Positions 39,712-50,022 of a DNA stretch of 64,000 nucleotides are shown piece after piece. The first letter of the stretch is position 1; each line of letters starts with the position of its first letter. Made by a program: the position numbers and the translations under genes. A model generated the notes under the pieces. That model saw only the letters and a program-made list of their open reading frames with translations. It made no database searches and was not told the origin of the DNA. The stretch is taken from contig JAOQAE010000006.1 in the NCBI GenBank assembly GCA_025963725.1, forward strand, positions 868,001-932,000, read 5' to 3'. The DNA comes from Bacteroidota bacterium. Its GTDB lineage: Bacteria > Bacteroidota > Bacteroidia > 2-12-FULL-35-15.

Positions 39712-40920
39712 CTATACATGAGCCTTATTCTTAAGCAAGTTAATATAGTGCATTTTCTCCTTAAACCCTTCCTGCGCTCCGAAACTACCAATGGTTTCAA
39801 TAGCCTTCTCATAAGAAGTACCAGCGCATTCAACGCTAATCGCAATATTGATCGCCGAAACAATTTCCTGTAGCTTTTCCAGTTCGGGCTTTGATAAAAA
39901 AACTGCATTCAAACCATCTTCGTTTATTCCGTTCGTTACAACAGGAATTAGTTTACCCGTTGTTGTTAACCATACAAGTGGCGTATCTCTCCATAAAGGA
40001 TTGTCTATTGGAGCCGCTGAACATCTTGCCAAGGCAGAAATAATAGTATTTCCCAAAATATTCACGCGTATATCATAGTAAAAGTTCCGCCCCTCTATAT
40101 TAACCGATGATGGTTCTATCCATTCCTGAAATACAACTTCCTCATCGTGTATGGAATTAGTAAGATCTTGGCATGCCTGTTCCCATACAGGGATTGATGA
40201 TACTTTTTGAACTCCTTTGCTCCCTGAGCCTCGCTTTGGCTTAATTATAACTGATTTACCAGATTCCAATAACAACCTCGCCACTTTATCTTCTGTTTTC
40301 AAGCTGTAATATGGAATACAGTTCTTTTCCAGGCCAACAGACTTTAACAAAAGCCCCACATGAGATTTGTCCCGACAGATTTTCCTTAAACGAAGATCAT
40401 TTAAGCAGTAACAACTGGTCACACTAAGGGGAAACTGAGCGCTTCGCCTATACATCGCAGCAACAGGCCTTTTTTTTACCCAAACCTCATCCCTTTTCTG
40501 CTCAACAGCAGTTACATCCGAGATATAAGCTTTTGCCTTGTTTTGTTTAAGTTCCTTTAATAAGGCATTAAAATCATCAAGGTTACGCCCGATCCGGTAA
40601 TCTTCCAAAAAATTCAAGTCTGTTGCTTTAACAGAAACATTACTTACTCCTCCTCTTATTCTATAACAATCCGGAAGCAGCAATATGATGTCCTCATTAT
40701 TGGAGTGGGACATCAATTCACTGGCAATTTCTTCAATTCCGGAAGAAGATCTTTCTGACCAAGGGTCTCTGCCTGCATTGAATAGTTGATCCGATAGTTT
40801 TAAACCTACAGGATGATCATTCACCTCTATAATATGCCATTGGCGGTGCTGATCCAAAATCAGATCAACACCCAATAATATCTTCTTATGTCGGGCATTA
40901 TTTTTTTCGCCCTTTAACAT
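39712..40920 (-). CDS. ATP-grasp enzyme, apparently circularly permuted
   Basis: A 402-residue ATP-grasp ligase-like protein. The order of motifs is unusual: GVDLILDQ...WHIIEVNDHPVG (D19, E32, N34), normally near the C-terminal end of an ATP-grasp fold, comes first. Then follow VAAMYRRS, and the ATP-binding loop IIKPKRGSGSKGV at 225-237, with YYDIRVNIL and ISALARCSA near 310-330. This fits circularly permuted ATP-grasp families. It overlaps the 87-residue peptide gene by 23 bases and ends the operon, so it probably ligates an amino acid or peptide to, or closes bonds within, that peptide. This is inference. Confidence 0.7.
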   Translation of the reverse strand: MLKGEKNNARHKKILLGVDLILDQHRQWHIIEVNDHPVGLKLSDQLFNAGRDPWSERSSSGIEEIASELMSHSNNEDIILLLPDCYRIRGGVSNVSVKATDLNFLEDYRIGRNLDDFNALLKELKQNKAKAYISDVTAVEQKRDEVWVKKRPVAAMYRRSAQFPLSVTSCYCLNDLRLRKICRDKSHVGLLLKSVGLEKNCIPYYSLKTEDKVARLLLESGKSVIIKPKRGSGSKGVQKVSSIPVWEQACQDLTNSIHDEEVVFQEWIEPSSVNIEGRNFYYDIRVNILGNTIISALARCSAAPIDNPLWRDTPLVWLTTTGKLIPVVTNGINEDGLNAVFLSKPELEKLQEIVSAINIAISVECAGTSYEKAIETIGSFGAQEGFKEKMHYINLLKNKAHV

Positions 40921-41161
40921 TATGCTCTATTTTTACTGCGTCCCAACCCTTCCGGAGATCCAGTATCTTTGGCGCAATAGTAGAAACAGAAGTCCCATTG
41001 ACGATGTCGATTATGGCAATTGTTTCATTTGCTGAAAGATCGATTCCGCTTTCCTGAAGCGTCTTTAAGGGATTTTCTTCCAGATCGTGTGCAAATTTTT
41101 TATCCTTCCGTGCTATTTCAAAAACGAAAGACACCTTCATTAACATTGCTTTTTGTATCAT
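40898..41161 (-). CDS. Putative precursor peptide with NHLP/Nif11-like leader
   Basis: An 87-residue peptide. Its N-terminal half (IARKDKKFAHDLEENPLKTL then SGIDLSANETIAIID) has the pattern A..D..F...L..NP...L...GI.LS..E of nitrile-hydratase-like and Nif11 leader peptides used by many modified-peptide pathways. The remainder, about 30-35 residues (from VNGTSVSTIAPK to GRKK), would be the core, though no double-Gly cleavage site is plain and it lacks Cys. It lies between the radical SAM and ATP-grasp genes, overlapping the latter by 23 bases. A small structural role is the alternative. Confidence 0.55.
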   Translation of the reverse strand: MIQKAMLMKVSFVFEIARKDKKFAHDLEENPLKTLQESGIDLSANETIAIIDIVNGTSVSTIAPKILDLRKGWDAVKIEHNVKGRKK

Positions 41162-41186
41162 AACATTTGGTTTTAGTGGTTTTTTT

Positions 41187-42440
41187 TTAATTGTCTCCTA
41201 TTATTCGTTTCATTATATATGTTGCAAATCTTTGGCTGGCGGTATTTAAAGTAATTGCCCGGTCATTCATCGATATTAATCCCTCATTTTCCAGTTCCGC
41301 CAGGTGTTCCTTAATAAGCGGGTCAATCTCCCCCACTTTCGTTAAAATTGGATCGAGCGGAATCTGCAATAGGCAAACGCCCATGGCTAAATCCCTTTTA
41401 CAGATATCTGTAGAATTCATCTTAAACATCTTATGGTAGGGTAATTCATCTGCCTTTACGGAAGAATGATATAAAGTGTGCAGCACGTGATTCTCCCAGA
41501 GATAACTGCCGTTCCGACTATATGCAGCAGGACCAAAGCCTAAATAATCCGAACCATTCCAGTTGGAAGTTACATATCTACATTGGTATCCTGACTTACA
41601 ATATTCTGTAAGCGAATATTGATCATACCCGTTTTCCGTTAGCTGTATTTGGGCCCATTCACGCATCTCATTAATAACCTCTGTAGAAGGAAGCTGTTTC
41701 ATAGTACCGTTTGCCAATGATCTATCCAGAAGCTCATTCTTAAACACAATAAGTGTATACAGTGAAAAATGCTTTGGTGCTAATTTTAAAGCCTCCTGAA
41801 TTGAAAATTTCCAATCCTCCATTGTTTGGCCGGGCAACCCAAACATCAGATCTATATGAATGTTTTCAATACCAGCTTCTTTAACGCTATTAAACATTTT
41901 AAGACTTTCCTCAATAGTATGCATCCTATTCAGTGATCTTAATAGCTCATTTTGAAAAGCCTGAAAACCAATGGACACTCTATTTATACCTATGCTCTTG
42001 AGTTGCCTAAAATCAGACAATTGCTTGGTTCCCGGCTCACATTCAAGCGTAATTTCCGCGTCTTTCAACAGCCCGAAAGAAGATCTTAGCTTATTCACCA
42101 AAATCGTTAGATCAGATACGGATAATAGCGATGCTGTTCCGCCTCCTAAATATAGGGCGCCGGGTTTTGACTCAGAAAAATCCCATTTTGCCAGTGTGAT
42201 CTCAATCTCCTTTAATATAGAGCCCATAAATTTATTTAACGCTCCCTTTTCTAGTTTTTTCCTTTCGAATGTGCAAAACGTACAGATCTCCCGGCAAAAC
42301 GGAACATGAACATATAGTGTGAAATCTGTCCATTTCATTAGAGGTAAGTCCTCTTTTTCCCAAAGAAATTTTGGCGGATGATGAAAAACATAAGCGCCAT
42401 CTTCTCTTCGTTGCTTCTCATTAATTTCTATTTTTTCCAT
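41187..42440 (-). CDS. HemN-like (class C-type) radical SAM enzyme
   Basis: A 417-residue radical S-adenosylmethionine enzyme of the HemN/HemW family. The cluster motif is C49-xxx-C53-xx-C56 in FCREICTFC, with the Y/H/P residues before it (LYVHVPFC), LGGGTAS near residue 98 and a C-terminal HemN-like domain (IKEHLAELENEGLIS). HemN relatives include heme chaperones, coproporphyrinogen dehydrogenases and peptide C-methylases. Its position next to a leader-peptide gene and ATP-grasp gene suggests that it modifies the peptide. It starts within the upstream QueG-like gene, overlapping by 13 bases. Confidence 0.85.
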   Translation of the reverse strand: MEKIEINEKQRREDGAYVFHHPPKFLWEKEDLPLMKWTDFTLYVHVPFCREICTFCTFERKKLEKGALNKFMGSILKEIEITLAKWDFSESKPGALYLGGGTASLLSVSDLTILVNKLRSSFGLLKDAEITLECEPGTKQLSDFRQLKSIGINRVSIGFQAFQNELLRSLNRMHTIEESLKMFNSVKEAGIENIHIDLMFGLPGQTMEDWKFSIQEALKLAPKHFSLYTLIVFKNELLDRSLANGTMKQLPSTEVINEMREWAQIQLTENGYDQYSLTEYCKSGYQCRYVTSNWNGSDYLGFGPAAYSRNGSYLWENHVLHTLYHSSVKADELPYHKMFKMNSTDICKRDLAMGVCLLQIPLDPILTKVGEIDPLIKEHLAELENEGLISMNDRAITLNTASQRFATYIMKRIIGDN

Positions 42441-43132
42441 TCGTATAATTTTTCAATGTTTAGTCCAATAGGACAACTATCAATACAGGCTCTGCATTCG
42501 ACATAACTATCTGAAGTAACTGCAACAGCTTTACTCTTGATCTTTTCAGGAGACGCAACAACACTTGAACAACGGAAAGCAAAAAAATCCGTCGGAGAAA
42601 GCGCATTTACCGGGCATGCATCAACACATCTACCACACTTTATGCACACATCCTTATCCATCGGCCTTCCATAGTTAATATCTAAAAAAACGTCTTTCGT
42701 AACTATTGTTGTCAACTGAATATAGGCGCCATGTTCAGGGTGCAGCAGAACGTTGTTCCATCCACGTGTTCCCAACCCAGCCATTTCGGCCAATACGACC
42801 TGAGCAATTTTATGGTTGGAGATCCTATCCAGGGACTGGATATGAGATGCGGGAAACATTTCAGCCAGGGAAACAATTATCGATTCAAGAATGTGATTGG
42901 CAGTTAAATAACGCTTTCCATTCAGATGATTCCAAAACCATAATGCCTCGCTGTCAATCGGAAGCCCAAAGATGAAAAGACTGCCCCCTTTGTATAAGCT
43001 CATTTTTTCCTTTTCCTTCTCATCCAATCTTTCTTCAAGACGAAGGCTTAAGCGTTCATCTAACCGCAATACTCCATATATGGCTTTGGGAATGAATGTT
43101 TGAATATGTGAGGTGTACTCCTGGAATAACAT
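42428..43132 (-). CDS. QueG-like 4Fe-4S ferredoxin protein
   Basis: A 234-residue iron-sulfur protein related to epoxyqueuosine reductase-type ferredoxins. It shows the family region AEMAGLGTRGWNNVLLHPEHGAYIQLT and two cluster motifs: CIKCGRCVDACPV (about residues 166-178) and CRACIDSCPIG (about 213-223). It is shorter than true QueG (about 350) and I do not see a full cobalamin domain, so it probably donates electrons, perhaps to the radical SAM enzyme. It overlaps that gene by 13 bases. Confidence 0.85.
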   Translation of the reverse strand: MLFQEYTSHIQTFIPKAIYGVLRLDERLSLRLEERLDEKEKEKMSLYKGGSLFIFGLPIDSEALWFWNHLNGKRYLTANHILESIIVSLAEMFPASHIQSLDRISNHKIAQVVLAEMAGLGTRGWNNVLLHPEHGAYIQLTTIVTKDVFLDINYGRPMDKDVCIKCGRCVDACPVNALSPTDFFAFRCSSVVASPEKIKSKAVAVTSDSYVECRACIDSCPIGLNIEKLYEWKK

Positions 43133-43158
43133 TGTTCGATAATGGTTTATAGATGTCT

Positions 43159-43569
43159 TTAATTCCCGTAATATTCAGCACAGATACGCGGTGTTTCAAA
43201 TAATTTTACCCGGTGTAATTTTACATTCGGCGGCAAATGGGGAGTGATCTGATTCCAGATCGCTATCGCCAGGTTCTCTGTGCTCGACATGGTATCTTTC
43301 ATAAATTCAACATCTAGGTTAAGATTTTTATGATCTAATTTTTCACAAACCTGTTCATCAAGAATTTTGCATACCAATTTTGCATCAATTAAAAAACCGG
43401 TGTCTTCATTCACTTCGCCTTTAAGCGTCACAATTAATTCGTAATTGTGGCCGTGCCAGTTAGTATTAGCGCATTTACCAAACACTTCTATGTTTTTCTC
43501 CTCGTCCCATTTGGGGTTGTATAATTTATGAGCTGCATTAAAATGCACATATCGTGTTAAATAAATCAT
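43159..43569 (-). CDS. 6-pyruvoyl-tetrahydropterin synthase-type enzyme
   Basis: A 136-residue PTPS-family enzyme. Zinc ligands H14 (FNAAHKLYN), H39 and H41 (WHGHNY) and catalytic C33 are present. The spacing C-x5-HGH and the segments LDHKNLN and SSTENLAIAIWNQI resemble true PTPS (biopterin route) more than bacterial QueD, which has C-x3-HGH. The gene heads a five-gene operon with the ferredoxin-like gene 26 bases on. The operon has no obvious partner such as GTP cyclohydrolase or sepiapterin reductase, so the product is uncertain. Confidence 0.85.
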   Translation of the reverse strand: MIYLTRYVHFNAAHKLYNPKWDEEKNIEVFGKCANTNWHGHNYELIVTLKGEVNEDTGFLIDAKLVCKILDEQVCEKLDHKNLNLDVEFMKDTMSSTENLAIAIWNQITPHLPPNVKLHRVKLFETPRICAEYYGN

Positions 43570-44547: not shown

Positions 44548-49920
<5,373 letters not shown>

Positions 49921-50022
49921 AGGTTCTGATTTAGAGTAGAAGTATGGAGAATCTGTGAGGCGCAATTTAAGAATAAGTTGCTTACGAAAAGCGTTCTCGC
50001 AGAAAATCCGCAGGATGAATTA

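Follow-up and report, generated by a model that had tools for sequence, protein, structure and literature searches.

The question raised by positions 39712 to 43569 of our window, a stretch of 64,000 nucleotides from a Bacteroidota bacterium, is whether the five genes packed there form a pathway acting on a ribosomal peptide, and which of them belong to it. A preliminary description, made from the sequence alone, had read them as a peptide natural-product cluster of no named class that mixes pterin and radical SAM chemistry. All five open reading frames of that description are indeed present on the minus strand, namely, in gene order, those for a PTPS, a QueG-like protein, a HemN-like radical SAM enzyme, an 87-residue peptide and an ATP-grasp enzyme. 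The PTPS gene, which is the first, lies 26 nt upstream of the QueG-like gene, and the latter overlaps the radical SAM gene by 13 nt; the peptide gene follows after a gap of 25 nt and overlaps the ATP-grasp gene by 23 nt, a spacing as in an operon. The GC content of the cluster genes (37-41%) is near that of both neighbours, and the cluster is flanked by genes for an HD-domain phosphohydrolase, pointing at it, and for a response regulator, pointing away. Neither a transporter nor a protease is encoded in the set, and no transporter was found among the flanking genes scanned. Scanning the cluster for promoters and terminators gave results no better than those for shuffled sequences, and the PADLOC and PHROGs searches returned nothing informative for it. 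Beside the cluster, positions 44548-49965 encode a protein of secreted type (1805 aa), in which many nearly identical domains are repeated and which has a tail of sorting type at its C-terminus.

When 84,980 species were scanned with the radical SAM enzyme, an orthologue of 69% identity was found, among the matches listed, in Hyunsoonleella pacifica (Flavobacteriaceae), a species that is also a member of the Bacteroidota and belongs to a different order from the source genome. Its gene is accompanied there by those for a QueG-like protein, an 87-aa peptide and an ATP-grasp enzyme, with order and strand as in the window, and its overlap with the QueG-like gene is again 13 nt. As four genes recur in order with an identical overlap, the set is more than a chance assembly: two distantly related Bacteroidota share four adjacent, partly overlapping core genes in one order, and the peptide is the most conserved of them (74% identity, compared with 64% for the QueG-like protein and 47% for the ATP-grasp enzyme). 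There is thus a second copy, with four of the five genes in the same order, in which the combination of leader-type peptide, radical SAM enzyme and ATP-grasp enzyme is kept together. The absence or lack of conservation of the peptide gene in other copies, which had been named as the finding that would speak against a peptide pathway, was not observed in these two genomes; instead, a small peptide gene is conserved beside modifying enzymes in both, as is expected of RiPPs. On the same scale, the HemW proteins of the two genomes are only 52% identical, so that the cluster may possibly have moved between lineages.

The gene set nevertheless appears to be very rare. The source order was represented in our search by 36 genomes of one single genus, and neither the ATP-grasp gene nor the QueG-like gene was found in the other 35 of them (0/35 for each). 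The ATP-grasp gene was likewise not found in 394 other sampled Bacteroidota, in 396 other Flavobacteriaceae, in plasmids, in viral contigs, or in an exact-pattern search of the 84,980 species. No copy of the QueG-like gene was found in plasmids and none of the peptide in plasmids or viral contigs, and a peptide search of 325 other Bacteroidota genomes gave weak, chance-like matches only, nearly all of them within long open reading frames. Besides the two known copies, radical SAM searches of 395 Bacteroidia genomes, and of 12 genomes of Hyunsoonleella's genus plus 326 of its order, returned matches at the level of HemW/HemN only. The four-gene set therefore occurs in at least two genomes, as judged in the species-wide radical SAM scan from the matches listed, and further copies may exist. 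In Hyunsoonleella, a lanthipeptide-type pair of genes (L150:3944-6956) lies some 5.7 kb upstream of the cluster. The first encodes a peptide of 107 aa whose C-terminal part is rich in Cys, and the second a kinase-LanC enzyme of 876 aa, whose closest model is class IV LanL (E-value 2.8e-115, below the cut-off). A calpain-family (C2) cysteine protease gene adjoins the Hyunsoonleella cluster on the opposite strand (L037:5520-6767); it could possibly encode a leader peptidase, or be unrelated.

The pterin gene does not share in this conservation. The PTPS of the cluster (43159..43569, minus strand) is of the eukaryote-like type with a C-x5-HGH motif, as identified by Pfam PF01242 (E-value 1.7e-33) and by its best PDB match, the 6-PTPS 1b66 (E-value 2.5e-33). 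However, PTPS is missing from the Hyunsoonleella cluster, the only other copy found, and that genome has just one PTPS, encoded on a different contig. The source genome carries a second, normal PTPS gene directly ahead of folE (L149:2991-4057; G000:C6:21490 onwards), a pair kept in most genomes of the same genus. We rejected a recent duplication of this host gene as the origin of the cluster PTPS, because the two are 59% identical, whereas the copies of the genus average 81% among themselves; the cluster PTPS is, judged by these identities, a divergent, local second copy. It may share a transcript with the cluster, but it appears to be an accessory of the source genome and not part of the conserved core. 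The mixing of pterin chemistry into the pathway can thus be claimed for the source genome only, since PTPS is missing from the Hyunsoonleella copy, and our literature search found no paper in which a precursor peptide is associated with either PTPS or epoxyqueuosine reductase.

The 87-aa peptide (40898..41161, minus strand) is probably a precursor. The two copies differ at 24, 6 and 47 first, second and third codon positions, respectively, and 34 of the changed codons are synonymous while 23 are non-synonymous; as the differences fall mostly on third positions and are more often synonymous than not, the small open reading frame must encode a real, selected protein. Residues 1-60 are identical at 51 of 60 positions (85%), and residues 61-87 at 13 of 27 (48%), with conservative exchanges. 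Conservation thus falls towards the C-terminus, the pattern of leader more than core seen in RiPP precursors, although the boundary between leader and core is not separable with confidence, since only two copies are compared. Two models of nitrile-hydratase-type leaders match residues 15-52 of both peptides, weakly but repeatedly: NF038399 (Os1348-type NHLP clan) has an E-value of 6.5e-5 in the window copy (22.9 bits against a curated cut-off of 40) and of 8.1e-5 in the Hyunsoonleella copy, and TIGR03793 has E-values of 0.0032 (17.3 bits against a cut-off of 50.9) and 0.0019, the Hyunsoonleella scores also being below the curated cut-offs. The top match of a two-sequence profile of the peptide in the PDB was 6lk7_A, annotated 'nitrile hydratase, alpha chain', at a weak E-value of 0.05. 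We therefore keep the nitrile-hydratase-type leader of the preliminary description only in a weaker form: the matches repeat in both copies and the N-terminal part is weakly leader-like, but the scores do not make the peptide a certified NHLP member. The window peptide has no Gly-Gly cleavage site, and the peptide contains no Cys. The candidate core 61-87 is not rich in Cys, Ser or Thr; it contains one conserved aromatic residue, W73, and conserved Lys (K65, K71, K77) and acidic (D68, D/E74, E79) residues. Conservation of the C-terminus, which had been suggested as a check, is the lowest in the peptide, with W73 kept.

The radical SAM enzyme (41187..42440, minus strand; 417 aa) has a PF04055 domain (E-value 7.6e-22) with the motif LYxHxPFCxxxCxxCxF, and a HemN-like domain. 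It passes the HemW model TIGR00539 (220.4 against a cut-off of 205.4). However, we rejected its identification as HemW, because it lacks the HNxxYW motif, it falls in a clade outside HemW, and the genome encodes its own HemW elsewhere. The motif is present in 107 of the 113 compared proteins and in the HemW of the genome, whereas the corresponding position of the cluster enzyme reads YVTSNW. In the phylogenetic tree, the enzyme, its Hyunsoonleella orthologue and a Methylobacter plasmid protein lie outside HemW with a support of 100/96, a placement to be read with caution as some of the branches are long. Its closest match in the PDB is NocN (E-value 4.1e-32), a class C radical SAM methylase. 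Class C chemistry transfers a methylene from a second SAM to an sp2 carbon (PMC6050322). The HemW motif and related motifs have been described (PMC10320005), and the enzyme lacks the additional motifs given there for menaquinone methylases. Among the matches listed, its nearest other relative is the 512-aa protein (33% identity) encoded on a plasmid of Methylobacter sp. YRD-M1 (L034:11571-13524), where the gene lies directly 3' of that for a 126-aa protein of unknown function, amid transposases, and without the other cluster genes. A match on a conjugative plasmid of Rhizobium gallicum was rejected as a relative, as it is a different HemN-like protein; this gene is followed by that for a 398-aa unknown protein (L035:5803-8489), and the two may represent another natural-product-type pair.

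The QueG-like protein (42428..43132, minus strand; 234 aa) contains two 4Fe-4S motifs according to Pfam. Its residues 105-222 match TIGR00276 with an E-value of 1.4e-13 at about 50 bits (49.7-50.6) against a cut-off of 200, which the complete QueG encoded elsewhere in the genome passes with 341.9 bits. Allowing for an inferred offset in chain numbering, S105 aligns with the catalytic Asp134 of QueG, and with Ser in place of this Asp, the cluster protein is unlikely to act as a QueG epoxyqueuosine reductase. Its AlphaFold model has a mean pLDDT of 57 and is fairly confident over most of residues 1-150. Foldseek found no significant match to this model (best E-value 0.036); with a second structure aligner, QueG (Z 9.7), a reductive dehalogenase (Z 9.0) and human CblC/MMACHC (Z 8.9) came out as the nearest solved folds, aligned over about 138-151 residues, while plain nitroreductases score Z 7.1 and below. 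The model thus supports placement in the cobalamin-type QueG/reductive-dehalogenase/CblC fold superfamily, and as these are the nearest folds, the protein probably binds cobalamin.

The ATP-grasp enzyme (39712..40920, minus strand; 402 aa) is matched by several families, the best Pfam E-value being 1.5e-6 and the best NCBIfam one 3.2e-10, to MptN. The arrangement of these matches is unusual. Residues ~14-42 match the C-terminal, Mg-binding E-x-N end of the Pfam RimK, ATPgrasp_ST and TTL profiles, and residues 18-37 match positions 256-275 of the D-Ala ligase profile, whereas residues ~180-300 match the central ATP-binding part that normally lies ahead of the E-x-N end. With the N-terminal piece moved to the C-terminus, the D-Ala ligase model scored 32.8 bits instead of 22.6, compared with 20.8 when the same piece was reversed; the YheCD model gave 28.1 for the native sequence, 31.4 with the piece moved and 16.8 with it reversed. 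The layout is alike in both copies and the peptide gene is directly upstream, so a missed N-terminal part does not explain it. The AlphaFold model (mean pLDDT 36) was too poor and was left out of the analysis; consequently, the profile matches are the basis on which we consider the enzyme to be apparently circularly permuted, with its E-x-N end at the N-terminus. Circular permutation is known in the ATP-grasp families PF04174 and PF14403 (CP_ATPgrasp_1 and _2); neither of them matched the enzyme in the Pfam search, nor did any graspetide ligase model in the NCBIfam search, both at E-values up to 1.

Our preferred reading, to which we assign a probability of roughly 0.6, is that the cluster encodes a RiPP-type pathway, rare and as yet unnamed, whose core consists of four genes, those for the QueG-like protein, the radical SAM enzyme, the peptide and the ATP-grasp enzyme. 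The 87-aa peptide would be the substrate, its first ~60 residues serving as a nitrile-hydratase-like leader bound by the enzymes and its C-terminal ~27 residues being modified. The HemN-family enzyme would act on this C-terminal part, and W73 is our best guess for its target, as it is the only conserved aromatic residue there and class C relatives act on sp2 carbons. A B12-dependent reduction would fall to the QueG-like protein, which has a cobalamin-type fold and two FeS clusters, and the permuted ATP-grasp enzyme would activate a carboxylate, either a side chain of D68, D/E74 or E79 or the C-terminus, to form an amide or ester. The order of these steps, like the choice of W73, is a guess. 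Without a transporter, a protease or a Gly-Gly site beside the cluster, the product would stay in the cell or leave it via genes elsewhere. The absence of a transporter, a peptidase and a leader cleavage motif, all of which occur in described NHLP clusters (PMC2887384), counts against the RiPP-type reading, as do the NHLP scores below the curated cut-offs and the missing menaquinone-methylase motifs.

The same absence of export and protease genes, together with the strong conservation of the peptide over its full length between orders, would suit a peptide that is a reusable carrier, at whose C-terminus the ATP-grasp enzyme attaches or builds a small molecule that is then processed by the radical SAM and B12-type enzymes and released as a cofactor or an amino-acid-like metabolite. 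LysW-type carrier proteins and pearlin scaffold peptides are precedents, and the nearest profiles of the ATP-grasp enzyme are of RimK/LysX/MptN type, in which an amino acid is ligated to a carboxylate. However, its scores are far below the cut-offs of these families, no PEARL-type gene is in the set, and the C-terminal end, which should be the most conserved part of a carrier, is the least conserved one; we consider a carrier unlikely. Alternatively, the ATP-grasp enzyme might link K65, K71 and K77 to the acidic D68, D/E74 and E79 through side-chain lactam or ester bonds, giving a graspetide-like macrocycle that the other enzymes decorate, a special case of the RiPP-type explanation. These Lys and acidic residues are conserved in the candidate core, and radical SAM enzymes do occur in some graspetide loci (PMC8939145), but the lack of any graspetide ligase match, the apparent permutation, the absence of a 'GG' leader and a radical SAM enzyme of HemN type rather than SPASM type make this quite improbable.

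Ranking just behind it, and doubtful as well, is a role of the 87-aa protein as a small structural or regulatory partner, the true substrate being a small molecule or a tetrapyrrole or cobalamin derivative. CblC and the HemN/HutW relatives do act on cobalamin or haem, and the peptide has no Cys/Ser/Thr-rich core; on the other hand, its leader-like N-terminus with nitrile-hydratase-type matches in both copies, and the precursor-like drop in conservation towards the C-terminus, speak for a RiPP substrate. Finally, the position of a divergent extra PTPS gene at the head of the cluster, 26 nt upstream of the core, and a tetrahydromethanopterin:glutamate ligase as the top NCBIfam profile of the ATP-grasp enzyme might suggest that this enzyme joins a PTPS-supplied pterin to the peptide. 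But the Hyunsoonleella cluster does without PTPS, and the score of 39.6 against a cut-off of 350 reflects a general RimK-type similarity, making a pterin-linked peptide very improbable.

Returning to the RiPP-type pathway, no named family, model or paper that we searched covers its gene set, in agreement with the preliminary description. If this reading holds, the cluster would represent an unnamed RiPP-type class whose enzymes (HemN-family radical SAM, QueG/CblC-like and permuted ATP-grasp) are undescribed as a set in the literature found, and a four-gene, directly expressible system for asking whether B12-dependent reductases modify peptides; the local nature of the pterin gene narrows the set needing expression. 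More tentatively, and with odds well below even, it might yield a new class of peptide-derived cofactor or metabolite, in whose formation a QueG/dehalogenase-type FeS reductase dependent on B12 would act on a ribosomal peptide alongside the HemN-family radical SAM enzyme and an ATP-grasp ligase in a new, circularly permuted arrangement. A B12/FeS reductase working on a peptide would be new chemistry for RiPPs, as we know of none.

Each component of the cluster resembles a known system in part. The QueG-like protein shares its cobalamin-type fold with QueG, reductive dehalogenases and CblC, and its two 4Fe-4S motifs with the former two, but differs from QueG in its small size, in S105 at the position of the catalytic Asp and in standing apart from the full QueG of the genome. 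The radical SAM enzyme has the CxxxCxxC motif and HemN-like domain in common with HemW and the HemN-family class C methylases (NosN/NocN, C10P, HutW); unlike them, it forms a clade of its own with the Methylobacter plasmid protein, and lacks HNxxYW and the menaquinone-methylase motifs. The ATP-grasp enzyme possesses the catalytic elements of RimK/LysX/MptN/Ddl-type ligases, though far below all RimK/LysX/Ddl cut-offs, and apparently a circular permutation, as such known from CP_ATPgrasp_1 and _2, though with no profile match to either family. As in proteusin/NHLP-type RiPP clusters (Haft et al. 2010, PMC2887384), a small peptide with a long, here weakly nitrile-hydratase-like N-terminal part is encoded beside modifying enzymes; however, its scores are below the cut-offs, and the cluster has no Gly-Gly site, ABC transporter, cyclodehydratase, lanthionine synthetase or epimerase. 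Although its radical SAM enzyme is of HemN type instead of SPASM type and its peptide sequence is not shared, the cluster is also similar to the PQQ and mycofactocin pathways, where a short conserved peptide, the possible source of a cofactor, likewise has a radical SAM enzyme encoded next to it (PMC3023750).
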